Positions 41,027 to 63,231 of a stretch of 64,000 nucleotides of DNA are shown in pieces (the first letter of the stretch is position 1; each line of letters begins with the position of its first letter). A program made the translations under genes and the position numbers. The notes below the pieces were generated by a model that was not told the DNA's origin, searched no databases, and saw only the letters and a list, made by a program, of their open reading frames with translations. The stretch comes from Desulfosarcina cetonica JCM 12296. GTDB taxonomy: Bacteria; Desulfobacterota; Desulfobacteria; Desulfobacterales; Desulfosarcinaceae. The stretch spans positions 1-64,000 of the forward strand of contig NZ_BBCC01000005.1 of the NCBI RefSeq assembly GCF_001311845.1, in the 5' to 3' direction.

Positions 41027-41066
41027 AAAAAAAAACCCTTCGGACAGGTAATTGTCACGAAGGGTT
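41027..41066 (-). terminator. riboswitch terminator before the CRP/AraC gene
   Basis: Arms AACCCTTCG and CGAAGGGTT (41058-41066 and 41034-41042) enclose a smaller GACA/TGTC stem, and nine T residues follow on the minus strand (41035-41027). It is a strong intrinsic terminator placed between the cobalamin riboswitch and the regulator start 58 bases further on, as in transcription-controlling riboswitches. Confidence 0.88.
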
Positions 41067-41131
41067 GCACCCAGCTTCTTGACCCTCGGTATCGGTATGG
41101 CTCCGTCATCCCGCGGAAAACCGACGATATA

Positions 41132-42253: not shown

Positions 42254-42687
42254 AGAACCTTCTCCGGGCGATCGACAATCAAAGGGGGGTTGCCGCCATG
42301 GAATTCGCCCTGGTGGCGCCGGTATTGCTGCTCATCGTGTTCGCCACGATCGAATACGGCTGGTACCTGACCAACTGGCTGGTCACGAACAATGCCGTCA
42401 GTGAAGGGGCCAGGGCGGCGGTCAAGGCCCGCGAGTGGGAAACCGACACGCAAGCCGCCGAGGACCCGGAAGCATTTGCCCGAACGGCCCTGGCGGAAGC
42501 CTTGTGGATCAATAAAAACCTGGATAGCGAATATGTCGAGACGGAAATCCTTCCGGCGGACGCAACCGCGCCCCGACGCATCGAGGTCCGGATCATCGAT
42601 CTGCCATATCGGTCCCTTACCGGCTACCTGGGGAAGACCATGCTGCCACAGACCCTGGCCGCCAAGGCAGTCATGGTGTTTCCGTAA
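42250..42687 (+). CDS. tadE: TadE-family pseudopilin
   Basis: This 145-residue pseudopilin of the Tad machine has RGVAAMEFALVAPVLLLIVF near residue 12, the TadE signature with the cleavage-site Gly and the Glu at +5. The rest is a short extracytoplasmic domain. It starts with a TTG at 42250 that overlaps the cpaA stop; GGGGGAA lies before it. It is needed for pilus assembly, probably as a minor or tip component, and is a likely substrate of the neighbouring peptidase. Confidence 0.9.
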   Translation: MKNLLRAIDNQRGVAAMEFALVAPVLLLIVFATIEYGWYLTNWLVTNNAVSEGARAAVKAREWETDTQAAEDPEAFARTALAEALWINKNLDSEYVETEILPADATAPRRIEVRIIDLPYRSLTGYLGKTMLPQTLAAKAVMVFP

Positions 42688-42755
42688 GCGGGTGATACAG
42701 CATTCAAGATTCGGGTTGTGCATAGAAAGCGAACCATTCTGAACGAGGGGATGCA

Positions 42756-43812: not shown

Positions 43813-43826
43813 GCGGAGAACTACGG

Positions 43827-45289: not shown

Positions 45290-46482
45290 CACCCCCATAC
45301 CGCCGCCGGAGGCCAATGGCCGCATCAGCGGCCTGGTGTATACCCGGGATGAAACCCTGGCTCAGGATATCGAACGGGCGGTTCAACCGATCTGCCGCAT
45401 CGAAGCCGCCATCGCGTCGATCCAGGAGATGCTCCAATCCCTTGAGCATAACGATGCCAAAATCTGTTTCGTGCATATCACGGGTGACCAAATCGACGAC
45501 GGCATGGCCCTGGTCCGTCAGCTGCGCCGGTCCCGTCCCGGTCTCGGCGTCTTCATCGTGGCCGATCGCAAGGATCCCGACCTGATCCTCCAGGGCCTGC
45601 GGCTGGGTGTCCTGGATGTCATCATTCCCGGCACGGACGGTGGCGACGGTTTCCTCTCGGCGTTGCAACACGCCCTGGGCCGCCAGGCCACCGAAGGCCG
45701 CAATGGTTTCGTCTACGCGCTCTTCAGCCTCAAGGGTGGCCAGGGGGTCACCACTCTGAGTGTCAACCTGGCCGACCAGATCCAGCTGTTGACCGGCGGC
45801 CGCGTCCTTTTGCTGGATCTCAACCTCTATCTGGGTGATGTGGGCGCCTGGTCAACATCCATCCCGACGTCACTCCCTTCGATCTGATCCGGGACTGGCG
45901 CGCATGGACGAAAACCTGCTTTTCTCCTCCCTGCATCGTCACGCCAGGGGGTTTTATATCCTGCCCTCACCGGCGGTGATCAGCGATGCCGAAAGGATCC
46001 ACCGGGACCAGATCAGTGCCATGATCAAGCTTCTCAAGCGCTATTTTTCCCACATCGTCGTTGATCTGCCCCATGATTTTTCCGAACGGACCCTGGCGGC
46101 CGCGGAGGCGTCGGACCGCCTGATGCTCCTGGTGGAGCCCGACCTGGTATCGGTCAAGAGCGCCCAGCAGGTGCTCAATTTCTTTCAGGAGCTGAATTAC
46201 GGGGACGACCGCATGGCCTTTTTGCTCAACCGCTTGACCAAAAGCAGTGTTCTGCAACCGGAGGACGTGGAAATGGTGCTCAAGCAACCCCTTCTGGCCA
46301 CGGTGGCCAATGACTGGCCGGCCCTGACCCGCGCCGCCCGCAAAGGCGAACCGTTGGGCGTCGCCCATCAACGCCGTCGAATTACCCACGATCTGTATGC
46401 GCTGGCTGCCCGGCTCCTGGGGATGACGCCGCCCGCAGCGCGAACGGGTTGGTTTCACTGGATAATAAACGGTAATCGATGA
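45279..46482 (+). CDS. cpaE: Tad assembly ATPase CpaE/TadZ (two frameshifts)
   Basis: This MinD/ParA-like protein of about 400 residues positions the Tad machine at the cell pole. The N-terminal domain is a receiver-like fold (VYTRDETLAQDIERAVQPIC) without a clear phospho-Asp. The ATPase part has a deviant Walker A, LKGGQGVTTLSVNLA, and RVLLLDLNLYLGDVG. Frames change near 45850 and 45896; between them LVNIHPDVTPFDLIRDW is read in the third frame. It starts with TTG at 45279 inside the end of the secretin gene. Function follows from its place in the locus. Confidence 0.88.
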
Positions 46483-46537
46483 ACGATCTTGGCGGAATCA
46501 ACAAATTGAACCAACAAACCCATTCAACCACCACGTC

Positions 46538-47893
46538 ATGAAACTCAGTGAACGCCTGAAATCCGATGTCTCCTGGGCCGACTACCGGGACAAAATCCAG
46601 GCCCGCGCCACGCTGGACCGGCCCACTTACAACCGGCTGAAGACCCAGGTGCACTTCCGGCTGGTCGAGCAGCTCGACTTCGCCTCACTGACCGAACTGC
46701 CCAAGGAGGCCCTGACCGGTTCGATCCGCGCCAGCCTGGAACAGATCACCACGGCCCATCACCTGCCGCTGAACCAGAAGGAACGCGCCGACCTGATCGC
46801 CGACCTGATGGACGAAATCCTGGGGCTGGGGCCCATCGAAGGGCTGGTTCAGGACGAGACCGTGCAGGACATCCTGGTCAACGGTCATGATCAGGTCTTC
46901 GTGGAGCGACGGGGGATATTGGAAAAAACCGACGTCCAGTTCCGGGACGACGATCACCTCATGCAGGTCATCGACCGCATCGTTTCGGCGGTTGGGCGGC
47001 GGGTAGATGAATCCTCGCCCATGGTGGACGCCCGGCTTCCCGACGGCAGCCGGGTCAACGTCATCATCCCTCCCCTGGCCCTGGTGGGACCGGTGGTCTC
47101 CATCCGCAAATTCGGCCGCCATCCGGTGACCATCGACCAACTGCTCGACAGCCTGGCCCTTACCGACGAGATGAACGCCTTCCTGAAGGCCGCCGTGCGG
47201 ACCAAACTCAACATTCTCATCTCCGGCGGCACCGGCGCTGGAAAAACCACGCTGCTCAACGTCCTTTCCGGTTACATTCCGCTTGCCGAGCGCATCGTCA
47301 CCATCGAGGACAGCGCCGAGCTGCGGCTCAACCAGCCCCACGTGGTGGGATTGGAATCACGGCCGCCCAACATCGAAGGACGGGGCGAGGTGACCCTGAC
47401 CGACCTGGTGAAAAACAGCCTGCGCATGCGCCCCGACCGCATTATCGTGGGCGAGGCCCGCGGCGCCGAGGTGATGGACATGCTCCAGGCCATGAACACC
47501 GGTCACCCCGGTTCCATGAGCACCATTCACGCCAACACTCCCAAGGACGCCCTGTCGCGCATGGAGGTCATGGCCGGCATGGGCACGGCCCTGTTTTCCG
47601 AACGCGCCCTGCGGGGATTGATTGCCAGTGCCATCCACCTCATCGTGCAGCTGGCCCGCCTGCCGGATGGCAGCCGGCGGGTTATGTCCATCTCCGAAGT
47701 CCACGGCATGGCGGATGAAACCGTGGCGGTGGTGCCCCTGGTGGCCTTCGTCCAGGAAGGGGTCGATGACCGCGGCCGCGTCCTGGGGTGTTTCAAGGGC
47801 ACGGGCAAAGCCTCTCTTTTCAGCGACCATATCCGCTCCCACGGACGGGCCCTACCCGAAGGGCTGTTTTCCCGATCCGTTCAGGTGGATTGA
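46538..47893 (+). CDS. cpaF: Tad pilus assembly ATPase CpaF/TadA
   Basis: This 451-residue secretion ATPase powers Flp pilus assembly. It has the N-terminal helical domain, [20 protein letters not shown], Walker [17 protein letters not shown] (near residue 228), the Asp box [20 protein letters not shown], Walker [21 protein letters not shown] and the His box [12 protein letters not shown]. The gene is intact. Its TGA overlaps the ATG of tadB. No clear ribosome site was picked before the ATG at 46538. Confidence 0.97.
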
Positions 47894-48851
47894 TGGGCAT
47901 CTTTCTGGCATCGATCGTTTTCCTGCTGGTTCTGGCATTGATCGGCGGTCTTCAATGGGTTTTCAACGCCATTGGGCGCAGGGAAAAACGGCAACACCTG
48001 CGCGTTTTCTTGAAAAGCCAGGCAGCGCTTCCCACGACGCCGGCGCAGTCAAAGGCGGCTGCGCCAAGCAGGCCGTCCGACAGCCGGTTGCTATGGGGCA
48101 TGGTGGACCTGGTCCGCCTCGAAACCCTGCTGATGGCCGCCGACGTTCCCATATCGGCGCAGCGCATGGCGATTCTGGCCCTATTGCTGGGACTGGCGGG
48201 ATTTTTGCCATCCTGGCCATGGCGCACAATTTCATCGGCGCCCTGCTGGCCATGGGGGCGGTCATCGGCCTGCCCCTGGCGGTCCTGCTTTACCGCCGAC
48301 GCCGGCGGGACGAAGCCTTGGTCCGGCAAATGCCCGATGCCCTGGACATGATCGTGCGCGCCCTCAGGGTGGGACAATCGGTGGACAACGCCCTCAGGGA
48401 AGCCGGACGAAGCATTCCGGCACCGCTGGGCACGGAGATCCAAACTATCTACGAGGAGATGTCGTTGGGGATTCCCTTTACCGCGGCCCTGCAGAATTTC
48501 GAAGCCCGTTTCGCCCGGCTGGCCGATGTGAAGCTCATGACCACGGCCTTTATCATCCAGCGGGAAACCGGCGGCAACCTGACCCGGGTACTGAGCAATC
48601 TCTCCGATCTGATCCGCGATCGTGACACCCTCAAGCGACAGGTTCGCGCCATGACCGCCGAGGGACGGTCATCGGCGGTCATCCTGGGCGTTTTGCCACT
48701 CGCCGTGGGCGCTTTTTTCTGGATGATCCGGCCGGTGTATGTCCAGACGCTCTTCAATCATCCCATCGGCCGCAAAATGCTGCTGGTCGCGATTTTGTTG
48801 GAAACCGCCGGGTTTGTGGTGATGAAGTTGATGACGAGGATCGATACGTGA
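47893..48851 (+). CDS. tadB: Tad inner-membrane protein TadB (frameshifted)
   Basis: This inner-membrane platform protein of about 320 residues is from the T2SSF/TadB family. An N-terminal membrane segment (FLASIVFLLVLALIGG) and a soluble part come first; after about 48205 the frame shifts, and the rest carries DALDMIVRALRVGQSVDNAL and ALREAGRSIPAPLG with the final membrane segments. One base restores continuity (LALLLGLAGIFAILAMAHNF). It partners with TadC to convert ATPase work into pilus growth. The start overlaps the cpaF stop. Confidence 0.9.
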
Positions 48852-49774
48852 GTCCGCCGCTGATCATCGCCGCCATGGTCTTTCTGCTCGTTTTCGGCGG
48901 ATTCATGAGCGCCTATGTTTTCCTGGAGGAGAAATACTGGCGCGCCATCCTGGCCCGCCGGCTGTTCGGCAATTCCCGGGAGGCCGTGGCCATGGTGGAT
49001 CGGCTGCGGACGCCCTGGATGCGCACGGCCCAGCGTCTGGGCCGGGCGGCGATTCCCAAGGACGCGTCCAGCGTGGCCGAAATCCGGCAACTGCTGACCC
49101 ACGGCGGTTTCCGTGGTCCCCAGGCCGTGACGCTCTATTTCGGCCTCCGCATCGGAGCCATGCTGATTCTGGGCGGCCTTTATCTGTTTTTCGCCCTGAT
49201 CACCGGCCATTTGCGCTGGAGCGATGCGGTGGTGGTGTTTCTGCCCCTTGCGGTCGGTTACTACCTGCCGGCCGCCTGGCTGCGGATTCGCATCCGATCC
49301 CGGCAAAAAGAGATCTTCCGCGAACTACCCGACGCCCTTGACCTCGTGCTGATCTGTCTGGAAGCCGGCCTGAACTTTGACCTGTCCCTCTACCGGGTCA
49401 GCCGGGAGTTGAAACGGGTGTCTCCGGTCATGTCGGAAGAGTTCGGCCAATACTTCTTGGAGATCCAAAGCGGCCTGCCGCGCAAGGCCGTGCTGGACAA
49501 TCTGGCGCGACGCAATGGCGTCGAAAGCCTCACCAGCGTGGTAGGGGTCCTGGTGCAATCCATCCGCTTCGGCACCAACATCGCCGAGGCCCTGCGGGTG
49601 CACATCGGTTCCATGCGCACGCGGAGAAGACAGCTGGCCGAGGAACAGGGCGCCAAGATGTCTACCCGGCTCACCTTTCCCATGGTGCTGCTGATTTTGC
49701 CGGCCCTGTTCATCGTCATCATGGGACCGGCCTTGATCAATATTTACGAACGTATTCAAGGCGGAGGCTTTTGA
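48848..49774 (+). CDS. tadC: Tad inner-membrane protein TadC
   Basis: This 308-residue partner of TadB has a similar T2SSF fold: ELPDALDLVLICLEAGLNFD followed by RVSRELKRVSPVMSEEFGQY, with membrane helices at the start and at the end (FPMVLLILPALFIVIMG). It is intact. The GTG start at 48848 overlaps the tadB stop; AGGATCG is a weak site. Its end overlaps the start of tadD. Confidence 0.93.
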   Translation: MSPPLIIAAMVFLLVFGGFMSAYVFLEEKYWRAILARRLFGNSREAVAMVDRLRTPWMRTAQRLGRAAIPKDASSVAEIRQLLTHGGFRGPQAVTLYFGLRIGAMLILGGLYLFFALITGHLRWSDAVVVFLPLAVGYYLPAAWLRIRIRSRQKEIFRELPDALDLVLICLEAGLNFDLSLYRVSRELKRVSPVMSEEFGQYFLEIQSGLPRKAVLDNLARRNGVESLTSVVGVLVQSIRFGTNIAEALRVHIGSMRTRRRQLAEEQGAKMSTRLTFPMVLLILPALFIVIMGPALINIYERIQGGGF

Positions 49775-50583
49775 TGGGCCGTGGTGTCCTTTTCGTGCAG
49801 GTGGGGGTCTGCTGGCTGATGATGGCCGTCTGCCTCGGCGGTTGCGCTGGCCGCTGGGGCCGGGAAACGGCCGCTGTCCGACCGCTGGAAACGCAATCCC
49901 GGCCGGACTGGCGGCCGACCACGACCGAACCCGACTACCTGGCCCTGGCCCGCGATCTGATCCAACAACACCACTATACCGTGGCCCTGCGGCAGCTGGA
50001 CCTGGCCATCCAGGCAGACAAAAACACCGCCGAAGCCCACTACCTGCAAGGGGTGTGTCAACGGGAGACCGGCGACCGGGCCAGCGCCCGGGAGAGTTTC
50101 CAGCAGGCCATCCAGTCGGATCGCGAATATGCACCAGGCCACAACGGCCTGGGAGTCGTCTGGTGCATGGACGGGCAATACGAAGCGGCACGCAAGGCCA
50201 TACAGAAAGCCGTCGCCCTGAACCCAGCCAATCCCGATTTTCTCAACAACCTGGGGGTAGTGGAAATACGCGCCCGTTTGGTCAAATCCGCCTTGACACG
50301 GTTCGAGCAATGCCTGCGCATCGCCCCCGATCATACCCGGGCGAAAAACAACCTCGCCGAATGCCTGGTACGACTGGGGCGGAACCAAGCCGCCCTGGCA
50401 TTTCTGGAGAAGCATTTCCCGCCGGCCGCCGCCTGCAACAATCTGGGGGTCATCTATGAACGGGTCGGTTATCTGTCACAGGCCCAAGGCATGTTCAGAA
50501 AGGCCCTGGACATCGATCCCCATCTGGCCGCGGCCCGGCATAACCTGAACCGCCTGAAAGCCAAGGAGACGCCTCAACCATGA
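49774..50583 (+). CDS. tadD: TadD-like TPR lipoprotein
   Basis: This protein of about 269 residues has a lipoprotein signal (lipobox LGGC near residue 25) followed by several TPR repeats, for example YLALARDLIQQHHYTVALRQ and APGHNGLGVVWCMDGQYEAA. It is likely anchored in a membrane facing the periplasm and, as TadD, helps build the secretin or the pilus. The start overlaps the end of tadC, its end overlaps the next gene by 4 bases. Confidence 0.9.
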   Translation: MGRGVLFVQVGVCWLMMAVCLGGCAGRWGRETAAVRPLETQSRPDWRPTTTEPDYLALARDLIQQHHYTVALRQLDLAIQADKNTAEAHYLQGVCQRETGDRASARESFQQAIQSDREYAPGHNGLGVVWCMDGQYEAARKAIQKAVALNPANPDFLNNLGVVEIRARLVKSALTRFEQCLRIAPDHTRAKNNLAECLVRLGRNQAALAFLEKHFPPAAACNNLGVIYERVGYLSQAQGMFRKALDIDPHLAAARHNLNRLKAKETPQP

Positions 50584-52417: not shown

Positions 52418-53371
52418 CTAATGGTGGGGGACGATCGGCAGCGACGTAGTGACATGCAGACGATACGCCTGGCCGGAAAGCAGGGGGTCGATCCTGCAGT
52501 TCAGATCCGTCCGGTCCGGTCCCACGAAAAGGACTTCCAGCGATTTGCCGTCGTTGGCACGGATGATCAGCGTTCCTTTGAATCGACCACTGCCGCGGCA
52601 GGCCGGGCACCGACCGGTCTTAAGCGTCAATTGCGAGGGGTATGCCTCCACGGGCGCTATCAAATGGGCAAACACCGGCACCACGATGTGTTCCCGGCCC
52701 AAATGATCGCTCCGCAAATGGATTCGGCCCCGATATGAACCCAGTGACTTCCGTCGGTTCTCCACGGTCAGACGGTACCGTTTGCTCTCCACGACAGGCG
52801 TCAGGCCCACGGCAACGTTATCACCAAGGTCGTGGGACTCAATGTGCACGCTGAAAGGTTTTTTCGAGCGGGTTTCGATAAGTATCTCCTGCTTGAGGTT
52901 CTGTCCGGCAAACCCATTGAAGAATACCCGATCCGGTGTCAGAGACACCAGAGGCTGAATCCGCGCGCTGACCTGTAATAGAATAACGGGACGCGCCGGG
53001 TCATCACAATTTAACGCCGCTTTGAACGTTCGCTTCCCATGGACTCCGGAGGTACCGATCGTCAGGCACACGTCCTTCATCCCGGCGACGGGGATTTCCA
53101 GTGGGTAGTCCACCCGAGTACAACTGCATCCGGGCTTGACTTTGTGAATGTGCAATGGCTTTCCTCCGGAGTTGCCTATGGCAAAGCAGGCGTTCAACGT
53201 TTCTCCCTCAAGGACCGTTCCCAAATCGACACGGCTCTCGGCCAGCTCCACTCTGGGCGCATGATGATCATCCCCCGCGTACAAAACACATGGCAAAATC
53301 GGATTCGGACCGCTTAGAAGAAGGAAGCACACGGTCAGCCAAAACCGTCGGATCGTTCGGTGACTATTCAT
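52418..53371 (-). CDS. exported DUF1573-type protein
   Basis: This exported protein of about 317 residues has a signal peptide (SHRTIRRFWLTVCFLLLSG) and an N-terminal Ig-like DUF1573 domain: LAESRVDLGTVLEGETLNAC, then KPLHIHKVKPGCSCTRVDYP with the CxC motif. A second Ig-like half and a Cys pair (CPACRGSG) near the end follow. Such domains are beta-sandwiches with unknown roles in the envelope. The ATG at 53371 overlaps the end of the upstream gene by 8 bases; upstream frames reaching to 53704 are unlikely. It forms a unit with the 53364-54038 gene. Confidence 0.78.
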   Translation of the reverse strand: MNSHRTIRRFWLTVCFLLLSGPNPILPCVLYAGDDHHAPRVELAESRVDLGTVLEGETLNACFAIGNSGGKPLHIHKVKPGCSCTRVDYPLEIPVAGMKDVCLTIGTSGVHGKRTFKAALNCDDPARPVILLQVSARIQPLVSLTPDRVFFNGFAGQNLKQEILIETRSKKPFSVHIESHDLGDNVAVGLTPVVESKRYRLTVENRRKSLGSYRGRIHLRSDHLGREHIVVPVFAHLIAPVEAYPSQLTLKTGRCPACRGSGRFKGTLIIRANDGKSLEVLFVGPDRTDLNCRIDPLLSGQAYRLHVTTSLPIVPHH

Positions 53372-54038
53372 ATTGCTGCCTATGATAGACCCGACCACCG
53401 ACCCAAAGGGTGACGGTAACCGTTCCACTATAACCGGTTTCCGTCCGGTACAGGTCGGCATTTTGAGCCATGATGTCCCTATACTCGGTGGAATGGTCCA
53501 CCGGTATGCGTAGCCAGATTTCGCCTTCGGCGGGTTGAATGTTGCCAAATTCACCCGATTCCTGGGCTGGCAGGGTGCCCTGCTTCTGGGCTGCAGTGGC
53601 GCCATCGGCCAACTCTGGATGGGACGCCTCGTACTCCAACTGCCAGACCGGGTTGTGGGTCTGGAGGGAAAGAATGGGAAGGGTGTCGCGAGCCACATCT
53701 TCATAGATTTGGTTGTTAACCAGCTCTAATTCGGCCTGGGCCAGCCGTATCGGATCAATGCGCGCCCAGGAGTTTTCAGGGGGGATGTAACCCGTTTCTG
53801 TTTTCGGGATGTCATCTGCAATCTGCGGTTGCCCGACGACGTCGGTGTCCGAATTCGATATCGGTGATGCTTCGGAAACCTTGCCGGAAACGGGATGAAG
53901 AAAGATGTTTTCTTCATGTGCCTGTTTTACGGGTACTCCCGGATGCGGATCATTCGAAGAATAATGGACGTAAGCGACGAACACTCCCATCACGAGAGCC
54001 GCCACACCAACCAGGATTGCTTTTTGCGTAATCTTCAT
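53364..54038 (-). CDS. hypothetical single-membrane-anchor protein
   Basis: I do not recognise this 224-residue protein. It has an N-terminal membrane segment (AILVGVAALVMGVFVAYVHY), a low-complexity linker rich in Pro, Ser and acidic residues, and a C-terminal part with beta-strand character (EIWLRIPVDHSTEYRDIMAQ, GTVTVTLWVGGRVYHRQ). Ribosome site AAAGGTGA precedes the ATG. It overlaps the DUF1573 gene start, so both are probably made together and act in the envelope. Confidence 0.7.
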   Translation of the reverse strand: MKITQKAILVGVAALVMGVFVAYVHYSSNDPHPGVPVKQAHEENIFLHPVSGKVSEASPISNSDTDVVGQPQIADDIPKTETGYIPPENSWARIDPIRLAQAELELVNNQIYEDVARDTLPILSLQTHNPVWQLEYEASHPELADGATAAQKQGTLPAQESGEFGNIQPAEGEIWLRIPVDHSTEYRDIMAQNADLYRTETGYSGTVTVTLWVGGRVYHRQQYE

Positions 54039-54120
54039 TATTCTATTTCACCTTTGGTTCTGCCAGGTTCGCCAAATCAGGATTACCAACGGATAGGCAA
54101 ACCCTTTTTACCTGAGGATA

Positions 54121-55287
54121 TCATTCAAACGGTACCGTTTCCCTGTAACGGCCCATAAGCATCAGGTAGTCTGCATAACTTGCCGGCCCATCCCCATTAA
54201 AATCCACGGAAGCATCCCATTGAGACGATTCGGGATCGATGGTGGCCAGCAAACGCCAAAACCAGTAATCGCCGACAGCGACAAGGCCGTTGTTGTCTAC
54301 GTCGCAATCACAGGGGTTACCGTAGCCGTCACCGTCCGAATCGGTTTGCAGGATATTCGCCGTTGCCTTGCAGTTGTCCAGGTTGTCGGGAATGAGATCC
54401 CGGTCAGCAATCGGCCCGTTCGGCGTTGTCAATCACCGTTTCGGTACGGCTGGTGACCAAGGTCTGCAACGGGTCGGTGGAGAGCGACGGATCGCCATGT
54501 GCGGTCTGGATCAACAAAGCCGTGGCCGCACCCACAATGGGTGTGGTCGAACTCGTATAAGTCATAGGCGCCACCAGGTCGGGGCGTGTGCGTCCGGCCG
54601 TGTATAAGTCATCCACGGCCGAGCAACCCCGACTGTGGATGCCGTCGGTACGACCCACGGCAATAACATTGAAGACCGATGCCGGCAAGGGACGCATGAT
54701 TGTGGAACTGTTGACCAGGCCCACCGTCTGGATGCATTCGTCTCGGTCCACGGTCCAGTCCAGGCGTCGCAGCAGAACCGACGTCTCCGTGTCGTCATCC
54801 AGGCCCGATCCCACCCAGCTATGGTTCTATGGTTGGCCATGCGGCAGGCAGTCTGGGCCGGCTGGTGGGAATAGCCGGAATAGAGGTATCCGTATAACAT
54901 CCAGTGACCGGCATTATGGACATCAATATCGGTGATGCCGGAAGCCATGGAGACGGAATCGCCGTAGAACAGTTTGACCACGCTGGTGGCATGGCTGGAA
55001 AAAATACCATCCGATGCCCCGTTACAGTCGTTCAGGGTTTCGCCGGAAAAAACAGTGTTATTTGGATCGGGCATCCATGTGTATGCATCATCCACAGTGG
55101 CCGCGGCCTCCACCTGACAAACAGGCAGGCCCGTGCCGTCCGGCAGGTCGTCGCCCAATTCGTCAGCCAACGTCACATAGCCGACGTCGGTTTTCCAGTC
55201 GGCCAGGACAGCCAGGAGAGAAAAAATGGAGGACAGCAACAGAAGTGTTATCGTCGTAAGGAAGCGACCATGACGGTTGTCAAACAT
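54121..55287 (-). pseudogene. S8-type (subtilase-like) exported protease, disrupted
   Basis: Three frames read leftwards make one protein of about 385 residues. A signal segment (TTITLLLLSSIFSLLAVLA) is followed by a subtilase-like part with HATSVVKLFYG (His-site-like), ANHSWVGSG (Asn region), SVFNVIAVGRTDG and RPDLVAPMTYTSSTTPIVGA (Ser region), then a calcium-type tail PDNLDNC...TDSDGDGYGN...DVDNNG. An exact 8-base tandem duplication at 54819-54834 shifts the frame inside ANHSW; another shift lies near 54430. In the Ser region GTSMA is replaced by TSSTT. The first break looks genuine, so it is called disrupted; catalytic ability is doubtful. Confidence 0.6.
54819..54834. repeat. 8-bp tandem duplication inside the protease gene
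   Basis: CTATGGTT occurs twice in a row. Removing one copy restores the frame and the expected protein text ANHSWVGSG, so this is a typical slipped-strand duplication. It could be reversible (phase variation) or fixed. Confidence 0.8.
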
Positions 55288-55390
55288 TTGGTTTTGTCCA
55301 TTCTAAAGAATACTTCTCCCGCCCCCAAACGTGAACCTGCCAGCCTGAACGGCCCGGCAGGCAAAAACAAAGCTCTAAAAGTTCAAATGG

Positions 55391-55995
55391 TTATCGGTCA
55401 TGCCGCCGCAGACCAACCAAGCCAAGCAGTCCAGAGCCCAGCAGCCAGACAGCGGCAGGGACTGGGACGGCAGCAAGGTCAGCCCCTATACTCTCTGGTT
55501 GATAAGTAACTGGCAAACCGTCCTCTACAAATGTCATTGCCTGCCCTGATCGATAAAAAGCTTCGAAATCAGGCAAACCATCATCAACCAACAGCTGCAA
55601 ATCATAGGTAAATGTAAGTGCTGCAACTTGAACTCTGTCATCAAGGACTATATCTGAAGACATAAAATTTAGCGCTTCTATTCCCTGAACATAAGGAGTA
55701 CTATTCTCGAATGTAGAAAAGCTTACCCACCACTGGGCTCTATTTCTTCTCCGCTTAAAAACGAAATACCTTCAGACATGTCGTACAAAATATCAAAAGA
55801 GTAATTCGACAACGTCTCCCCTTCACCAACAATCCAAACATCAATTGTCACTTCCCCAGAAGATGGGTAATAGACGTCGCCATCATTGGACAGAGATATC
55901 CCATCAATGGTTAAATCAACATATGCTGCGTTGATTGGTGAAACTATAAGAAGGGAAAGAAACAGCCCAACAATGATAAATTCTATTTTCTTCAT
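55391..55995 (-). CDS. VPLPA-CTERM sorted protein (frameshifted)
   Basis: This exported protein of about 200 residues has a signal peptide (IEFIIVGLFLSLLIVSPINA), a cohesin-like beta domain (VDLTIDGISLSNDGDVYYPS, VTIDVWIVGEGETLSNYSFD) and a C-terminal sorting tail VPVPAAVWLLGSGLLGLVGL followed by Arg residues. The frame breaks near 55728 in a GGTGGG spot; one base joins EEIEP to QWWVSFSTFENS. TGGAGGAAAA precedes the ATG. The tail marks it for exosortase processing, with release to the surface. The cohesin-like first part is notable beside dockerin-like tails in neighbours. Confidence 0.82.
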
Positions 55996-56082: not shown

Positions 56083-57636
56083 TTAATAAAATGGAGCATC
56101 TTCGAACCACCGCCCCCTGAAGTTATTGTAATCGCTTATACCGACGGTTCCATCTGAGTCCATGTCAACGATAGGGTCGGTACCCAAAAACTCTGACCTA
56201 AAAATATTATAGTCGGAGATGCCAACAATTCCATCATTGTCAAAATCCGCATCGGCAGCATTCCCCCATCCATCCCCATCCGTATCTTCCTGACCGGCGT
56301 TGGGGGTGAGGTAGGCATTGTCCGCAGCATCCGGAATTCCATCGCCATCGCTGTCCGGCGCGGTATCCGGATAATAGATGGTCAGGCGCGGTGAGACGCC
56401 CGTCAGCCAGTAGTCAGTGGCCGACCCGGGGCTGCCATAGCAGGTACCGTTTGTCTCATAATAGGTGGGGTTCCACATCACGGCCAAGCCGCGGCCCCAG
56501 TTGCCGAACAGTATGCCGGTGGCTGAGTCATCCTGGCAGGGGTCGGGCGCGAAATACCTATACTCGCTGTTGTCGGACTTGTCTCCGTCGGTTACCGGCG
56601 AGGTGCGGGTACCATCGGCAATGTCGTTGACGATACCGGCCCTGATCAAGGCCGCGTAGCCGTTTTCACTCACGCCACCGGTTCCAAAAGCGTCACCACC
56701 GCCGATGTGCAAATTGCCCTCGGCATCCTCGCCCAGATAGGCGGCGCTGATAATGTTACTGGCGACAATCTTGGTATTTCCTTCATACGCGAGCGACGAT
56801 CCGCTCACTGGATCCCACTCCGATGGCCCCCACACCTTCAGTTCCCCGGTACGATTCGTTGGGTAGGTGTAATATCCCAGGCCGGTAATCAGGTTGCCGT
56901 TGCCATCCACCTCCACATCCGAGGAAGCACCAGGAATGCCAAAAATCAGCGGTACACCTACGTGCGTGGAAGGATCGTTGTCCTCGGTGTCGATGGCACC
57001 GACACCGCTTGCAAAGGTGCAATCCGGATCCTCGTCATAGGGCTCGTCACATCCGTCGGGCCACATGCCGCCGTTGATCACGAAGTACTGATTGTCTGCC
57101 CAGTCACCGTCATAGTAAGCGACCTGTTGAAAAAGAGAGACGCCGCCGATGACATTCGTGGGCGCGTTATCACCATCCAGCTCGAAAAGAAGCGGCGGAT
57201 TGGAAACGCTGAGAACGTGGGTGTCGATAATTGCCAGAGGGGCACCGTAACCGATCCCCAGGGCGATCTTGCTGCCGTCCGGCGAAACGTGGATGAAGCT
57301 GGGGTCCATTGTTGTCGGAACCGTAGCCACCAAGTCCCACTGGCTGGAGCCATAAGTTCGTTGCAGGTAGAGATTCTTACCGGTAGCGGCGATCAGGCGG
57401 CCCACGGCTTCGAATTGGCCGTCAATGACGTCCGTGGTACCGTCGGGGAAGAAATCGACGGCCGTGAACCAGCTCGGACCCGCACCTACGTATTGGCCCT
57501 CGACGATTGGGAGGTCCACCACGGCAGTCGTTCCGGCCGGTGTATTGTAATGATCGAAATCCTGCGCGGCGGCAACTATGGGCATGGACGCCACACAAAA
57601 CGCCAGCACCCCTAGCCACTTAAAAATGCGTTTCAT
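56083..57636 (-). CDS. exported beta-propeller-like protein with dockerin-like repeats
   Basis: This 517-residue exported protein has a signal peptide (about 1-24, ending AAA) and a long region with repeated strands of propeller type (LIAATGKNLYLQRTYGSSQW, FIHVSPDGSKIALGIGYGAP). Then come calcium-type repeats DSDGDGIPDAADN and DTDGDGWGNAADADFDNDGI, and two dockerin-like units, GISDYNIFRSEFLG and GISDYNNFRGRWFE. No sorting tail. AAGGAGGA fixes the start. It may bind surface partners through the dockerin-like end. A structured leader precedes it. The enzyme or ligand role is unknown. Confidence 0.8.
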   Translation of the reverse strand: MKRIFKWLGVLAFCVASMPIVAAAQDFDHYNTPAGTTAVVDLPIVEGQYVGAGPSWFTAVDFFPDGTTDVIDGQFEAVGRLIAATGKNLYLQRTYGSSQWDLVATVPTTMDPSFIHVSPDGSKIALGIGYGAPLAIIDTHVLSVSNPPLLFELDGDNAPTNVIGGVSLFQQVAYYDGDWADNQYFVINGGMWPDGCDEPYDEDPDCTFASGVGAIDTEDNDPSTHVGVPLIFGIPGASSDVEVDGNGNLITGLGYYTYPTNRTGELKVWGPSEWDPVSGSSLAYEGNTKIVASNIISAAYLGEDAEGNLHIGGGDAFGTGGVSENGYAALIRAGIVNDIADGTRTSPVTDGDKSDNSEYRYFAPDPCQDDSATGILFGNWGRGLAVMWNPTYYETNGTCYGSPGSATDYWLTGVSPRLTIYYPDTAPDSDGDGIPDAADNAYLTPNAGQEDTDGDGWGNAADADFDNDGIVGISDYNIFRSEFLGTDPIVDMDSDGTVGISDYNNFRGRWFEDAPFY

Positions 57637-57845: not shown

Positions 57846-58711
57846 TTATTTGCGCCGACGCCGCAAACCGACCACCCCAAGCAAGCCGCTGCCCAGCAGC
57901 CAGACCGCCGCCGGCACGGGTACCGGAGCCACATCGGCAAAGGCGTCCACTTCACCGCCGGAAAAGCCCTCGATCCCCTCGACCCTGACATATTGAATCC
58001 AATCATAGCCCGATTCGGCCAGGTCAAAGCCCGTACCGCCGCCGGAGCCGTCATAGAGGGCGATGGCATCGGCGGCGGACATGCCTCCCGCCAAAAGCGT
58101 ATCGGCCAGATCCGGGTCCACCGGCTTGGTGAAATCCGACTCCGTGTCGGTCCACTGCTCGTTTTCGCTGTCCCAGAGATAAGCCTGGGTGGGAAAGGCG
58201 CTGTCGCAGTATGGGCCGCTGTCATAGGTGTACCATTCCTCCCCATCCTGGCTCACCGACACCACAAGCTGCTCGAACCAGGCACCCCCCACCAGCATGT
58301 AATCTTCCATATTGGAAAGATCGCTCACGAAACCGCTCCCGACATAAAACGGGTTGCCGAAAACCAAAAGGTCGATTCCGTATGGGTTCAGCGGATCGTC
58401 CTCAACCTGGTGATCGAATTTCACCGTGACATACTCGCCGGTGTTGAGGGTGGTGATCAGTTTTTCATCGTTCAGCCCCACATTCCAAGCTGGCTCGACG
58501 AGCTTGACCCTACCGGTTGCCGGGTCGAATCCGGAGTTTTTGAAGTTGGTCGAGGGTTTGCCAAGCACCGCGTAAGGATCATTATACAGGAATGACCCCG
58601 TAAGGAGCTGCTGTAATCCACCAGTTCGGTTGCAAAGCTGGAATAGCCGAAGGCCGGGGCGGCCAGCATGACAACGGCCATACACATTAAAATTTGGGTT
58701 ACTGCTTTCAT
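57846..58711 (-). CDS. VPLPA-CTERM sorted protein (frameshifted)
   Basis: This exported protein of about 288 residues is one of a pair of paralogues (the other at 61699-62235). The signal peptide (ILMCMAVVMLAAPAFG) leads to a part with LVDYSSSLTGSFLYNDPYAV (after repair of a shift near 58605), VVSVSQDGEEWYTYDSGPYC, YDWIQYVRVEGIEGFSGGEV and the tail VPVPAAVWLLGSGLLGVVGL. AAGGAG precedes the ATG at 58711. A further in-frame ATG at 58786 would add a second signal-like stretch (AVAAVLIASAFAL); the nearer start is preferred. The fold looks beta-rich; function unknown. Confidence 0.82.
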
Positions 58712-58832
58712 TGAATGTTTCTCCTTAGATATCAACGCAAAAGCAGAAGCTATCAAAACCGCCGCAACTGCAATTTTCTGTTTCATTTCTCGTTCCTTTC
58801 TCATGGACAGCGCATTTGTGAGCCGACTTTAT

Positions 58833-59399
58833 TCACGAGCGTTCTTTTCGCTTCACCCCCATTAACCCCAACAAACTGCTACCCAACAGCCACACAGCGG
58901 CGGGAACGGGGACGGAAGACGTAGCTGCGTCGTCATAATAAGTCCGGAAAACCGCATCATCACCGGCGTAGAACCCGCCCTGATAGTACAATCCGCCATT
59001 CGGGTAAGGATCTCCCAGATAAGGATCTCGCGTGATCATGCCGGTTCCCACAATCTCGAAGACATACGTCTCGCCCACGGCAAGCCATAGGTCGGGATCA
59101 ATATCGAAGAATGTATAGCCGTCCAAGCCAGGGGTCTCATAATCCGTGGTGTAAAGAATGTTTCCGGTTATGGTATCCTCTCTAATATTCAGGTAGGTCG
59201 AGCTGCCACCCAGGTAGGCGATGGCTGCCAAGTTAGACTGAGAAGGGATGAAGCTTTGGCCCATGGGACTAAAGACCGCGATGTTCAGGCCCCCTCCCCC
59301 TTGGGAATTCTCTTGATCGACAATTAGTGCAGCATGACTCCAAGCCGCCGACAAAACAAAGGTGGCAACCACTATAATTGAGAATAGTGCGCGTTTCAT
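58833..59399 (-). CDS. VPLPA-CTERM sorted protein
   Basis: This intact 188-residue exported protein has a signal peptide (ALFSIIVVATFVLSAAWSHA), a beta-type domain with PMGQSFIPSQSNLAAIAYLG and DPDLWLAVGETYVFEIVGTG, and a sorting tail VPVPAAVWLLGSSLLGLMGV then KRKE. The middle resembles domains that wrap choice-of-anchor proteins. GGGAG precedes the ATG. It sits in a row of similar genes on the same strand. Confidence 0.88.
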   Translation of the reverse strand: MKRALFSIIVVATFVLSAAWSHAALIVDQENSQGGGGLNIAVFSPMGQSFIPSQSNLAAIAYLGGSSTYLNIREDTITGNILYTTDYETPGLDGYTFFDIDPDLWLAVGETYVFEIVGTGMITRDPYLGDPYPNGGLYYQGGFYAGDDAVFRTYYDDAATSSVPVPAAVWLLGSSLLGLMGVKRKERS

Positions 59400-59420: not shown

Positions 59421-60070
59421 TTAACGTCTTCTTCTCAAACTGGCCAAGCCAAGCAGCCCTGAGCCAAGCAACCAGACAGCAGCCGGCACGGGAACCGGCG
59501 CGGCAGCAAAGGGAATGTCAAGTTGGTCGTCGGCATAATCAGGCAGGGTGCCGAACCACATGATGGCGTTGATACCTTCAAACTGGCCGTCGGCGAGCAG
59601 TTCTTCAGTAATTCCGGCTGTGTTGAAGTCCCACTCGGAGTCTCCCCATGTACCCCATACCAAATCGGGGTCACTGGTGCTGGCCAGGTTCCAGCTACCC
59701 TCCTCGATGTGCATGTGACTTCGTTGTCTTCTTCGTCCCAGTAGCCGATGTTATTAACAAAGGCCCCGCCATAGCCAGTGTCTACGATCAGAATGCCGGC
59801 ATCATTGAAAGCGGTAAGCATGTCCGACTCATAAGCCGTGCCGTCCCAGCGAAAACCGAAGGCATGGGATTCGGATAGAATATCCTTGCCGTTTGCTTCC
59901 TGATCCAACTTATTCCAATCCACCACCAGGATGGTTTCGTTTGCGCCGATACCGGCCCAGGCTTCCACATCCACCCAAGTCCCGTTGAAGTCATAGACCG
60001 CCGCGTGGGCGCCGGTCATCGTGCATAAAATGAAAAAACCAGTCAAAATCATGCGTAGAATCAATTTCAT
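59421..60070 (-). CDS. VPLPA-CTERM sorted protein (frameshifted)
   Basis: This exported protein of about 216 residues has a signal peptide (ILRMILTGFFILCTMTGAHA), the part GANETILVVDWNKLDQEANG and AFGFRWDGTAYESDMLTAFN, and the tail VPVPAAVWLLGSGLLGLASL with four Arg. The frame changes near 59715 (EDNEV/HMHIEEGSW). The segments (I)VDWN and (F)GFRWDG recur in the 62275-63008 protein (VIDWRDG, WGYRWDGEATGADMF), so the two are paralogues. AAAGGAG before the ATG. Confidence 0.85.
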
Positions 60071-60094
60071 GTGGTTATACTTCTCCTTTGTGGT

Positions 60095-60868
60095 CTATTT
60101 ATTTCTTCTGCAAATGCCGATCATCCCCATCAGTCCGCTGCCCAGCAGCCAGACGGCGCCAGGCAAGGGAACCCATGTGGTTGCGGTGTTGTCTGTCGAC
60201 TGCCAATCTTTTAGCAATTGTCTAAAGGCTTGATCTTCAAAAAGGAAAGAAAAATCATAGAGATCCAGAGCCGTATAAACATAGGCATCGAATTCGTCTC
60301 CGGCCCAATCCGTGCCGTCCTCGGTGTTGTTCATGATGAACTGCAATTCCAACCCAAGGTCCGACCACGTGTCGCCAATGATGCCGAAACCAAAATCTTC
60401 CAGGCCTTCGCCCTCGACCAAAGTGCCGGTGGATGTTCTTCCGGAAACAATTGCGTCGAGATAATCTTCATACGCTTGATCGAAAATACCGGCCTCGGAA
60501 TCATACGTAATGGAAAGGGATCCGGATAGCAACGTCAGGCTTTGGCGGCGGATATCCAACGCCAGTGTTGCGTCAAGACTGTATGAGTAGTCTTCGGCAC
60601 TAAGAAAATAACTGCTTCCGGGTATTTCTACAGCCGCATCACCACTATTGGCGGCCGTGATTTGAGCGACGAACCCCAATCCCCATTGATAGGAGACATC
60701 GTAATCCACGATAAGACTGTCCACGGTTATTCGTGGATAGGCAGCATCGAAATCCCCAATCAAGGCGGCATTGGCATCGAAATTGATCAATAAGATAATA
60801 AAGCAACTCAACATTAAAACAGCAGTGCTTCTAATAATTCTAACTTTTGTTACATTCATTTTCATCAT
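60095..60868 (-). CDS. VPLPA-CTERM sorted protein behind tandem riboswitches
   Basis: This intact 257-residue exported protein has a signal-like segment (STAVLMLSCFIILLINFDAN), a beta-rich middle (SLIVDYDVSYQWGLGFVAQI, LALDIRRQSLTLLSGSLSIT) and the tail VPLPGAVWLLGSGLMGMIGI then CRRNK. I do not recognise the middle domain. Upstream on the same strand lie a terminator, a cobalamin riboswitch and a c-di-GMP-I-like RNA, so expression may respond to B12 and possibly to a cyclic dinucleotide. The start may be either of two neighbouring ATG codons at 60868 and 60865; GGGAG lies just before. Confidence 0.85.
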   Translation of the reverse strand: MMKMNVTKVRIIRSTAVLMLSCFIILLINFDANAALIGDFDAAYPRITVDSLIVDYDVSYQWGLGFVAQITAANSGDAAVEIPGSSYFLSAEDYSYSLDATLALDIRRQSLTLLSGSLSITYDSEAGIFDQAYEDYLDAIVSGRTSTGTLVEGEGLEDFGFGIIGDTWSDLGLELQFIMNNTEDGTDWAGDEFDAYVYTALDLYDFSFLFEDQAFRQLLKDWQSTDNTATTWVPLPGAVWLLGSGLMGMIGICRRNK

Positions 60869-60995
60869 CTCCCGATTGCCTGTAAACGGGATTCAGGAAC
60901 ATCCCCCTTTTGCTATAGTTAACGTGAGTTCCAAACGATTCCGATCTTCGCTTTTTTTTCACCTCCCCTCTTTTACGATTTCACCGATCCGGGCA

Positions 60996-61035
60996 AAATA
61001 AAAATCCCGGACCGACAGACGCATCGATCCGGGGA
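60996..61035 (-). terminator. terminator of the second cobalamin riboswitch
   Basis: ATCCCCGGATC and GGTCCGGGAT (with small mismatch) enclose about 13 bases and are followed on the minus strand by TTTTATTTT. It lies 70 bases after the B12 box and 128 before the VPLPA-CTERM start, the normal place for a riboswitch terminator. Confidence 0.7.
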
Positions 61036-61104
61036 TCTTCCGTTTTTCTTAACAAGAAGTAGATCTTCCGGTGCCGACCCCGATCCACGGGGGTATGCGG
61101 CCTT

Positions 61105-61310
61105 TCAGGCAGGTCTTCTGACTTCCCCGCCCGCCCGGCGGCCTTCCCGTCACAAGAAGACAGTGGCGTATGATACCAGGCGGTACTCTCCGAATCGGTT
61201 TGACGGGGCATGAACACCCTTTGCGTCAAAACGATTCCGAGCGGGGTTACAGCGGCGGGCCCGTCCCTGATTTGCACAGGGTTCCCTTTTAAAGTCATGG
61301 GGCATGTTAT
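61105..61310 (-). ncRNA. cobalamin riboswitch
   Basis: On the minus strand: TAAAAGGGAACCCTGTGCAAAT, GGGCCCGCCGCTGTAACCCC, a variable arm, and the B12 box with AAGTCAGAAGACCTGCCTG at 61124-61106. All core blocks of the class are present and in order. It faces a VPLPA-CTERM surface protein gene and not a known B12 gene; a terminator follows. Confidence 0.92.
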
Positions 61311-61397
61311 CGCGAGAAGAAGTGCGCGTTTGGCGACCGATCTCCCATGTATCCCCTGACTACCCAAAAGTGATGGTGAATCTCAAAAGCCAAAGAA

Positions 61398-61504
61398 CAA
61401 AAAAAAAGCCGGGTGACCTTTTCAGGGCAACCCGGCGTTCCTTTTGACGAGAGGTAGGATCCGTGGCTTTCCGGCCTCCGGTTACCCGGAGTGTGGCGTT
61501 TACC
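61398..61504 (-). ncRNA. c-di-GMP-I (GEMM)-like riboswitch with overlapping terminator
   Basis: Minus-strand order: GGTAAAC (61504-61498), a 6-bp stem CTCCGG/CCGGAG capped by the GNRA loop GTAA (61491-61476), GGAAAGCCACGG (from 61472), and GCCGGGTTGCC (61435-61425). GGTAA(A)C pairs with GTTGCC as helix P1. GCCGGGT can instead pair with ACCCGGC (61413-61407) to make a terminator followed by nine T. The two pairings exclude each other, as in a transcriptional switch. The 3' blocks match GEMM; the usual GGGACGC before AAAGCC is GGCCGG here, so ligand type is uncertain. Confidence 0.55.
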
Positions 61505-61655
61505 TGTTTGTTACGGGTAGGTTCTCGTTTTGTGTATACTTGACTTGCTTTATAAAAGATTGTAATTCCTTGCGGGAAACCGGAACTTCGTTGCGTTTTT
61601 TCTCACAATCCTGATGTTGACTGATGATAAGCGCTACGCTGACGCCGCCGGCCAT
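61500..61655 (-). CDS. possible small membrane protein
   Basis: A 51-codon frame reads MAGGVSVALIISQHQDCEKK then RNEVPVSRKELQSFIKQVKY and ends TQNENLPVTNR. It has one hydrophobic segment that continues upstream (PRFVRLLLPLAMAGG), but no ribosome site before the ATG, and the frame has no better start after the preceding stop. It may be a real small membrane peptide, the end of a broken gene, or chance. It ends within the first bases of the c-di-GMP-I-like RNA. Confidence 0.3.
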   Translation of the reverse strand: MAGGVSVALIISQHQDCEKKRNEVPVSRKELQSFIKQVKYTQNENLPVTNR

Positions 61656-61698: not shown

Positions 61699-62235
61699 TT
61701 AAGATGTCATCCTTCGGCGGCTGCCTATCACGCCCAGCAAACCGCTGCCCAGCAGCCAAACGGCGGCAGGCACCGGCACCGGTGCCACGTCGGCAAATGC
61801 ATCAATCTCGCCAGCCAGTGATGCAGCGGCATTCCCCTCCACTTTGATATATTGAATCCATTCAAATCCGGATTCATCGAGATCGAAACCGGTACCGCCG
61901 GCGGATCCGGCATACAGCAACATGGCTTCGTAAGACGACCGTCCAGCAAAATCGGATTTTGTCAGGCTGGGATCCACCGGAAGGGTATAGTCGTTCTTGG
62001 TGGTGGTCCAGCCGTTACCGGTTTCGTCGAAAAGATTCGGGTCCCACACCCAGGGATTCGTGGGATAGGCGGTATCCCCGTATGGACCGTTTTCATAGGT
62101 GTACCAGGTTTCACCATCCTGGCTGACAGAAATCAGCAAGGGCTCTGCCATGGCACTTCCCGTCGTCAGAGTATACTCCCGGTGATCGGTATCGTCGTAG
62201 ACAAACCCGATTAACGGAATCGTCTGTATTCTCAT
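61699..62235 (-). CDS. VPLPA-CTERM protein lacking its signal peptide
   Basis: This 178-residue protein is a shortened paralogue of the 57846-58711 protein: LLISVSQDGETWYTYENGPY, FEWIQYIKVEGNAAASLAGE, IDAFADVAPVPVPAAVWLLG and SGLLGVIG match it closely. The first about 110 residues of the relative, signal peptide included, are missing, yet a good AAAGGAG site lies before the ATG at 62235. A deletion between the start and the middle of the gene would explain this. Without export the sorting tail could not work, so the gene may be dead or the N-terminus is lost by assembly. Confidence 0.75.
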   Translation of the reverse strand: MRIQTIPLIGFVYDDTDHREYTLTTGSAMAEPLLISVSQDGETWYTYENGPYGDTAYPTNPWVWDPNLFDETGNGWTTTKNDYTLPVDPSLTKSDFAGRSSYEAMLLYAGSAGGTGFDLDESGFEWIQYIKVEGNAAASLAGEIDAFADVAPVPVPAAVWLLGSGLLGVIGSRRRMTS

Positions 62236-62274
62236 TTGAATATTCTCCTTTCCGTTTCCTGGGCCGATTGCGTT

Positions 62275-63008
62275 TCACGATTTCATTTTCCGACGGATGC
62301 CGATGATTCCCATCAAGCCGCTGCCGAACAGCCAAACCGCCCCGGGGATGGGAACAGCAGACTGAGCCGCCACAGGTGTAATCGGTGCCGATCCATCCCC
62401 ATAACCGGCGGTTCCACTGAAGCTCCAGCCGTCCCAGGAACCGTCAGACAACACCCTGGCCGAAATTCCATAACCGGAGTAGGCCCAGTCAGACCCGCTG
62501 TCGCTCACCCAGTAGCTCCAATAGCCGGAGTACCAGCCTTCCACGTAGTGATCACCCTCGTCCGAGGGAGCGCCGTCTTCTCCAGGGTATTCTCCGGCTT
62601 CGTAGCCGAAACCGTCGTTATCCAGGTCATAGCCGATGCCCGACACGGTGTATGCGCCACCGAAAGACTCCCACCATACTAACTTTCCATACAGCCTGGC
62701 GTCGTCGCCGTATAAACCGCCGACATAAGGGCCGCCGGTGGCGGTTCCGCTGCCGACGATGGCCGCAAACATATCCGCACCGGTAGCTTCGCCGTCCCAG
62801 CGATATCCCCAGACCAGCGACTCGGGTTCCTTGCCGTCCCGCCAGTCGATCACCAGAGCGGCTTGATTCTCGCCTTCGCCCACCCAGTAGGTGATGTTGT
62901 CGAAATCAAAGTCCGTGTAAGGGCTGGCCTCGGCGGAAGCTGCGTCATCAGCAGGATTAAGAAAACAAGCCCGTAAACAAAAAAGGTTAACAAACGGTTT
63001 CTTTTCAT
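62275..63008 (-). CDS. VPLPA-CTERM sorted protein (frameshifted start)
   Basis: This exported protein of about 244 residues starts at the ATG at 63008, where GGAGG lies 7 bases before. The signal segment (LLTFFVYGLVFLILLM) is in one frame; near 62945 one base joins it to AASAEASPYTDFDFDNITYW. The body has QAALVIDWRDGKEPESLVWG and YRWDGEATGADMF, then a Tyr/Trp/Gly-rich part, and the tail VPIPGAVWLFGSGLMGIIGI then RRKMKS. It is a paralogue of the 59421-60070 protein. First gene of the leftward VPLPA-CTERM row. Confidence 0.83.
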
Positions 63009-63231
63009 GAGCCATCCTCCTTCTTTTGTGTGTTTGGAGTTAAATCTGGGATGAAAAATGTAAAGAAAAGTTGAGAATTTGTTATAGACGATATCGCTCA
63101 ACGATGATTGAATTTTTTTGCGCTTAACGTGCACTTTGTTGCGTTTGTCAATGGTGGCGGAAGAGGAGAGACGTCTTAGGAAATGATGACATCCGAAAGG
63201 AAGACAGGAAGTGAAAGACGGTGAGTAAAAA

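Follow-up and report, generated by a model that had tools for sequence, protein, structure and literature searches.

Leaders in which a riboswitch for adenosylcobalamin (AdoCbl) is paired with one for a cyclic dinucleotide have been described before. A published survey contains two AdoCbl/c-di-GMP-I tandems and one AdoCbl/c-AMP-GMP tandem, with the AdoCbl riboswitch first (Sherlock and Breaker 2022, PMC9481103). The table of that survey, in the portion available, has no row ordered c-di-GMP-I then AdoCbl; one further c-di-GMP-I riboswitch is placed ~320 nt upstream of an AdoCbl riboswitch, its role being given as unclear (PMC9481103). The Desulfobacca acetoxidans tandems carry terminators after their AdoCbl aptamers and are predicted to be turned OFF by AdoCbl and ON by c-di-GMP; their target, conductive pili, is tentative (PMC9481103). 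The metE SAM-I/AdoCbl tandem also places two independent riboswitches in one leader and uses cobalamin as an OFF input (PMC9481103).

Surface proteins for corrinoid capture are known from Bacteroides. The BtuG, BtuH and BtuJ (DUF4465) loci encode surface corrinoid binders controlled by cobalamin riboswitches (PMC12751083, PMC8941943, PMC13398666). BtuJ1 and BtuJ2 belong to the DUF4465 family (PMC12751083), and B12 binding has been reported for eight distantly related members of this family (PMC13398666). In Methylophaga nitratireducenticrescens GP59, a c-di-GMP riboswitch is found beside PEP/VPLPA-CTERM genes, whereas the cobalamin riboswitches belong to the cobalamin synthesis cluster and not to these leaders (PMC12530212, in the sections available). 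The available part of PMC12452182 yielded no c-di-GMP-I/cobalamin pair. A link between such tandems and DUF4465 was not found among the openly available main texts searched.

The locus described here lies in a 64,000-nt stretch of Desulfosarcina cetonica JCM 12296 (contig NZ_BBCC01000005.1), referred to as the window. It shares with the D. acetoxidans tandems both riboswitch classes, the terminator after the cobalamin aptamer and the predicted truth table. It differs from them in order, as c-di-GMP-I comes first in the window and in two relatives (genomes G022 and G014), and in target, which is a run of VPLPA-type surface-protein genes tied to DUF4465 loci; the published order occurs at two other loci, L196 and L248 (comparison with the accessible text of PMC9481103). 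The metE tandem differs more widely, being a NOR gate over a metabolic gene that operates without a second messenger (PMC9481103). The Bacteroides proteins are lipoproteins rather than bearers of exosortase-type tails, and no c-di-GMP input is noted for them in the portions of those papers available (PMC12751083, PMC8941943, PMC13398666). Moreover, whereas the Bacteroides corrinoid-uptake loci include DUF4465, the window operon lacks this family, which its sister loci do carry. An earlier note on this DNA, made from the sequence alone, had known of no described pair of this kind. That claim does not stand, as AdoCbl/c-di-GMP-I tandems are published in the opposite order (PMC9481103); what is new is the order c-di-GMP-I to cobalamin and a newly supported target, a likely purpose of the pair.

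Both RNAs of the leader are firmly identified. A search of the whole window with Rfam models at gathering thresholds places a c-di-GMP-I riboswitch (RF01051) at 61507-61423 on the minus strand (52.3 bits against a threshold of 35, E 2.4e-7) and a cobalamin riboswitch (RF00174) at 61332-61091 on the same strand (64.1 bits against 31.5, E 1.6e-13). Apart from these two, Rfam matches the window only at 41305-41120 (-), where it places another cobalamin riboswitch. At E <=0.001 the genome (7.09 Mb) holds 12 cobalamin matches and 10 c-di-GMP-I matches, one of the latter scoring below the Rfam threshold, and contig C5 is the sole contig on which the Rfam lists show both. From these counts, ~0.003 pairs would be expected by chance within 400 nt in the same order and orientation. 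The pair is real, above chance and conserved in three species. The suggestion in the earlier note of a GEMM-like RNA followed by a cobalamin riboswitch is thus borne out, both scores lying above threshold, and the covariance-model search that it had proposed returned significant matches for both families.

The c-di-GMP-I aptamer (61423-61507, minus strand) is supported by Rfam, alignment and covariation, and its binding bases are of the c-di-GMP type. In an alignment of 26 related aptamers that we selected, bases G11, A38 and C81 are identical in all 26; we take these to be the ligand contacts G20, A47 and C92 of the c-di-GMP-I riboswitch. Both-sided changes are seen at 13 of 18 consensus pairs of these chosen aptamers. 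Our own c-di-GMP-I model, which includes the window sequence, scores the window aptamer at 78.6 bits. The G11 position is presumably the specificity site at which the c-AMP-GMP variant differs. In that cGAMP riboswitch variant, A replaces G at the specificity base (PMC9481103). The base is G in the window and in 26/26 chosen aptamers, so that cGAMP is an unlikely ligand. The Rfam variant c-di-GMP-I-GGC fits the G022 aptamer better than the standard model. A change of ligand on this account was rejected: at a position that is A in the window and G022, the consensus of the variant reads G. What GGC stands for in this name is a guess on our part.

Folding past the aptamer reveals intrinsic terminator 1 (61399-61436, minus strand), which consists of a hairpin at 61436-61408 followed by T9 at 61407-61399. 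The hairpin takes the 3' strand of the aptamer as its 5' arm, as expected from the mutual exclusion of P1 and terminator proposed for this RNA earlier. Terminators that overlap the aptamer in this way were found in 14 of 28 leaders tested, and in all seven leaders tied to dual-switch or DUF4465 loci (window, G022, G014, L196, L243, L248 and L241). This sharing of one strand by aptamer and terminator predicts a first switch that is ON with c-di-GMP.

For the cobalamin aptamer, the Rfam match covers less than the full structure. Comparison with G022 and G014 identifies a P1 helix of eight paired positions, two of them G-U, formed by strands 61370-61363 and 61109-61102. All eight pairs are kept in both relatives with some bases changed, and the aptamer accordingly extends over 61102-61370 (-). 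The extent read originally (61310-61105) was therefore too small, although the riboswitch and its own terminator were correctly recognized. The predicted expression platform comprises terminator 2 with its T-rich tail (60995-61034, minus strand; hairpin ~61034-61006) and a candidate antiterminator strand, UCGGGG (61078-61083, minus strand), which can pair with the 5' arm of terminator 2. Duplex energies for this pairing are -10.0 kcal/mol in the window, -12.6 in G022 and -10.7 in G014. Terminator 2, the candidate antiterminator helix of 5-6 pairs and the GGCACCGG element are present in all three leaders, a number of orthologues too small for strong covariation on the cobalamin platform. The GGCACCGG element may make an L5-L13 contact. 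The cobalamin score of the window tandem is the lowest of the 12 in its genome. The G022 aptamer (L208 16183-16546, minus strand) has a large insertion between its conserved halves, is matched by Rfam only as two sub-threshold pieces (31.1 and 24.9 bits) and, given the insertion, may be non-functional.

Whether the two RNAs act together depends on whether they share a transcript. The window has 37 nt between the terminator 1 hairpin and cobalamin P1, G022 has 26 nt, and G014 has 156 nt, including 48 N. A promoter scan of 61720-60850 detected no promoter-like site between the RNAs and no sigma-70 consensus promoter upstream of the c-di-GMP aptamer; the sole minus-strand site (60886-60858) spans the start codon, and 0.5 such sites are expected by chance. 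Upstream of the tandem, a 37-bp block (61558-61594, minus strand), putatively part of a promoter or an activator site, is kept in all three species. It occurs with <=6 mismatches solely before the three tandems among the loci compared, and in none of 20 shuffles of the window. A possible -10-like hexamer, TATACA (61533-61538, minus strand), lies 19 nt past the block, and at the same distance G014 has TATAAG and G022 has TACAAG. The conserved unit thus consists of upstream block, c-di-GMP-I riboswitch, terminator, cobalamin riboswitch and terminator. The gene before it differs: the window has a VPLPA-type gene there (62235-61699), which stops 192 nt short of the aptamer, G014 has an ORF whose tail is similar, and G022 has a transposase. 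The short gap, the lack of a detected promoter between the RNAs and the conservation of the unit behind differing upstream genes make a single transcript most likely. The earlier note had raised this arrangement together with control by combined signals, had named a promoter between the RNAs as evidence to the contrary and had recommended a comparison with relatives. The scan found no such promoter, the relatives keep arrangement and block (with the G022 cobalamin aptamer interrupted), and combined-signal control is a likely reading.

Among 30 genomes of the family, 121 c-di-GMP-I matches were obtained at E <=0.001, and at least three of these (window, G022 and G014, all one genus) have a cobalamin riboswitch next within ~400 nt. 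The window's own genome was scored from Rfam match lists; outside it cobalamin regexes were used, which recover 17/20 and 10/12 Rfam-known loci and so give counts that are lower bounds. Among the matches listed, the tandem was not found in 10 of the 13 genomes of the genus, by a regex that is not fully sensitive. A candidate in G024 was rejected as a tandem: its c-di-GMP-I and cobalamin riboswitches are 685 nt apart, with an open frame of 157 codons between them. A scan of genome contigs for aptamer cores gave nine stretches, two of which contain both families by Rfam. One of these, L193, is apparently the G014 locus and not an additional tandem. The other, L196 (isolate Zod_Metabat.1317), has the order cobalamin, cobalamin, c-di-GMP-I; it apparently comes from G540, as protein tail and aptamer length match, and is counted once. 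The other seven stretches have no cobalamin riboswitch by Rfam, and some of them end at contig ends. In G574 (L248), a cobalamin riboswitch (by regex and by eye) and a terminator are followed by c-di-GMP-I, a second terminator and a DUF4465 gene. Dual switches are thus known from five genomes, with c-di-GMP-I first in the window, G022 and G014 and cobalamin first in G540 and G574. That both orders occur, and in different families, suggests a repeated origin of the dual switch.

Four of the five dual-switch loci, all but the window, carry DUF4465, with a match to the PF14717 domain in G014, L196, G022 and G574. In G014 the gene directly after the tandem encodes a DUF4465 protein (E 9.4e-54) with a VPLPA-type tail. 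The gene after the L196 pair is likewise DUF4465 (E 1.6e-49), has an exosortase-type tail and matches PDB 9hmu, a named DUF4465 protein (E 1.8e-21). In G022, tandem and DUF4465 gene share a strand, the gene following ~7 kb further downstream in a gene run whose products mostly have VPLPA-type tails or repeats by eye; an exosortase candidate recognized there by eye (L209 6022-7101) has no Pfam match. Within the family, DUF4465 was found in 2 of the 30 genomes, G014 and G022, both of which bear the tandem. Of 389 genomes of the order, 34 have a DUF4465 match, as do 8 of 394 in a phylum sample; two matching genomes are in both sets.

Of 36 DUF4465 loci, 25 have a cobalamin riboswitch no more than 1.5 kb from the gene (20 by Rfam, five by regex pairs that recover 16/20 and 8/12 Rfam-known riboswitches). 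A VPLPA-type tail was detected by regex in 10. At up to the same distance, our own model finds c-di-GMP-I at 3 of the 10 tailed loci (G014, G574 and G540) and at 0 of the other 26, a count that excludes one weak L226 match (12 bits, E 0.42). Wider stretches, taken around chosen loci only, add the G022 tandem on the same strand as DUF4465, a c-di-GMP-I riboswitch heading a gene run that includes DUF4465 in G345, and one directly before DUF4465 in G319, which is outside the 36 loci. The regex found no cobalamin motif in the G319 and G345 stretches, a weak negative. These data fit a rule in which a cobalamin switch accompanies a B12-binding domain, c-di-GMP-I accompanies an exosortase-type tail, and the pair would arise where both meet. 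Against a strict form of the rule, 7 of the 10 tagged DUF4465 loci have no c-di-GMP-I within 1.5 kb. Two loci, L243 (5165-5086, minus strand) and L241 (3786-3865, plus strand), have c-di-GMP-I riboswitches with overlapping terminators heading a DUF4465 gene or gene run and no cobalamin motif by regex, which would correspond to the other half of the gate alone. Among the 26 DUF4465 proteins without a VPLPA tail, 23 contain CFI or CFV in their last 40 residues. This ending is perhaps another C-terminal signal for sorting or anchoring, of the kind named CFI-box-CTERM.

The gene run putatively controlled by the leader starts at 60868 and proceeds on the minus strand to ~52.4 kb. Gene 1 (60095-60868) encodes a 257-aa protein whose tail, VPLPGAVWLLGSG, is clearly of the VPLPA type by eye, as the first reading had it; its TIGR03370 score of 17.3 bits, however, falls below the 25.35 cut-off, so that a formal VPLPA-CTERM assignment does not follow. 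The protein has no clear family match and no PDB sequence match, and the one full-length relative found is a paralogue in the same genome. Gene 2 (59421-60070) is split over two frames; its match is a neighbour of the DUF4465 operon in G345. Gene 3 (58833-59399) is a VPLPA-CTERM gene above the cut-off (26.4 bits). It is followed by a VPLPA-type surface protein (57846-58685), which matches a gene next to the DUF4465 operon of G345 at 52%, and by a 517-aa protein (56083-57636) with C-terminal calcium-binding-like repeats, which has a match of 52% within the DUF4465 locus of G068 and matches of 34% in G022 and G319. A PDB sequence search with the latter returned calcium-binding-like repeats and one weak surface-layer protein match; the frame at 62275-63015 had no PDB sequence match. 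Further genes (52418-55995), several of them frame-split, have matches in G022, G068 and G319 and include a DUF1573 protein (53704-52418). AlphaFold models made without an alignment were uninformative (mean pLDDT 36.1 for 60095-60868 and 33.0 for 56083-57636). Frame-split genes lie on the minus strand at 59.4-60.1, 55.4-56.0 and 54.1-55.3 kb, their pieces having been searched separately; the splits may represent operon decay or an assembly fault.

DUF4465 itself (PF14717) has no match in gene 1 or in the window's genome, which is 86.8% complete. The neighbourhood is nonetheless shared. When reading-frame pieces of the window were stripped of their tails, 14 of 71 matched the chosen loci: 11 lie at 52.4-63.0 kb, one is the regulator described below, and two are frames within the RNA leader and were discounted. 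Matches to G345 (42 to 76%) involve 62278-63039, 61702-62274, 59424-60094 and 57849-58724, and three matched pieces hit genes that precede the c-di-GMP-I site there. The piece 56086-57648 matches G068 (52%), G022 and G319 (34%) and also G014; 54124-55302 matches G022, 53367-54047 matches G068 and G319, and 52421-53725 matches G319, where the matched genes are on the other strand and run away from DUF4465. The regulator piece (40157-41158) matches G068 and L196. Genes 1 and 3 (60868-60095 and 59399-58833), stripped of their tails, have no match among the chosen loci. All the matched loci (G345, G068, G022, G319, G014 and L196) carry DUF4465. Judged by this homology, the DUF4465 loci and the window operon are versions of one module, and the operon may, by association, serve corrinoid capture.

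The cobalamin riboswitch at 41305-41120 (-) scores 105.2 bits, more than that of the tandem, and precedes a gene for a cNMP-binding/AraC-type regulator (40154-41002, minus strand). Relatives of this protein in L196 (by Rfam) and L240 (by regex) also follow cobalamin motifs, and the protein may therefore be a B12-responsive regulator of these loci. Adjoining it on the plus strand (41744-50583) is a Tad-type pilus-like run, so labelled by eye, in which Pfam identifies a prepilin-type peptidase, a secretin and a T2SSE ATPase. Across the genome, 5 of the 10 c-di-GMP-I sites (on contigs C2, C3, C5, C19 and C35) precede an ORF with a VPLPA-CTERM match, some of these matches being weak; they perhaps mark a c-di-GMP-controlled set of surface proteins.

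The main reading, to which we assign a probability of roughly 70%, is that the leader (61594-60995, minus strand) is a two-input gate, c-di-GMP AND NOT B12, acting on one transcript over a surface operon that is most likely part of a corrinoid-capturing layer. Transcription would begin upstream of 61507, so that the c-di-GMP-I riboswitch is made first. With c-di-GMP bound, the aptamer would retain its 3' strand, terminator 1 would be blocked and transcription would continue. With adenosylcobalamin bound to the second aptamer, terminator 2 would form and transcription would stop. Expression of the genes from 60868 down would then require high c-di-GMP together with low B12 (A AND NOT B). Their products, surface proteins with exosortase-type tails, would most likely form a corrinoid-capturing surface layer of the attached state. 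The gate logic is likely, and the role in B12 capture is plausible.

Three other explanations have to be set against this gate. The leader might hold two independent units. The c-di-GMP-I hairpin would then act on the upstream VPLPA gene, as its attenuator or 3' end, and control of 60868 onwards would fall to the cobalamin riboswitch alone, transcribed from a promoter of its own. The upstream gene does end only 192 nt before the aptamer, and a hairpin as strong as that with T9 could terminate its transcript, as the earlier note had also considered; cobalamin-only control, moreover, looks common for DUF4465, cobalamin riboswitches being near 25 of 36 loci and c-di-GMP-I near 3 of 36 (<=1.5 kb). 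But 37 nt leaves scant room for a promoter, the c-di-GMP aptamer has retained its binding bases, and the 37-bp block is kept in 3/3 leaders even where the upstream gene is a transposase. That persistence argues against a hairpin that simply ends the upstream transcript, and we regard independent units as quite improbable. Decay of the leader to a relic with one or both switches dead is more improbable still. It would agree with the low rank of the cobalamin score, the split genes downstream and the insertion in the G022 aptamer. Against it, the window and both relatives have retained the binding-site bases, the P1 helix, the pairing of the antiterminator and the two terminators.

The remaining alternative accepts the shared transcript and disputes its purpose. 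In this view B12 would report on the general state of the cell, such as that of its one-carbon metabolism, and the operon would encode ordinary adhesins or matrix proteins. Gene 1 is indeed not DUF4465, a family not found in the genome, and c-di-GMP-I before PEP/VPLPA-CTERM genes is a wider theme, seen at half of the sites here and in Methylophaga (PMC12530212, in the part available). Yet DUF4465, a family shown to bind B12, is in four of the five dual-switch loci, genes of the operon are common to DUF4465 loci in other families of the order, and the regulator at 41.3-40.2 kb stands behind a cobalamin riboswitch, as in L196 and L240. On balance, an operon unrelated to B12 is rather unlikely, and the gate over a corrinoid-capturing layer is preferred.

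A broader generalization can be offered as a conjecture, with the odds against it. The c-di-GMP AND NOT B12 gate may have been assembled repeatedly, in both orders, wherever a corrinoid-capturing layer is displayed by exosortase. This would account for the D. acetoxidans tandems, and the window operon, with gate and sister genes yet no DUF4465, would hold new, non-DUF4465 families of extracellular corrinoid-binding proteins. For a pair of riboswitches whose link to conductive pili was tentative in the published survey, the gate proposed here would offer an explanation open to testing. It also suggests that environmental bacteria may capture corrinoids with proteins anchored at the surface, and it nominates protein families that may bind corrinoids.
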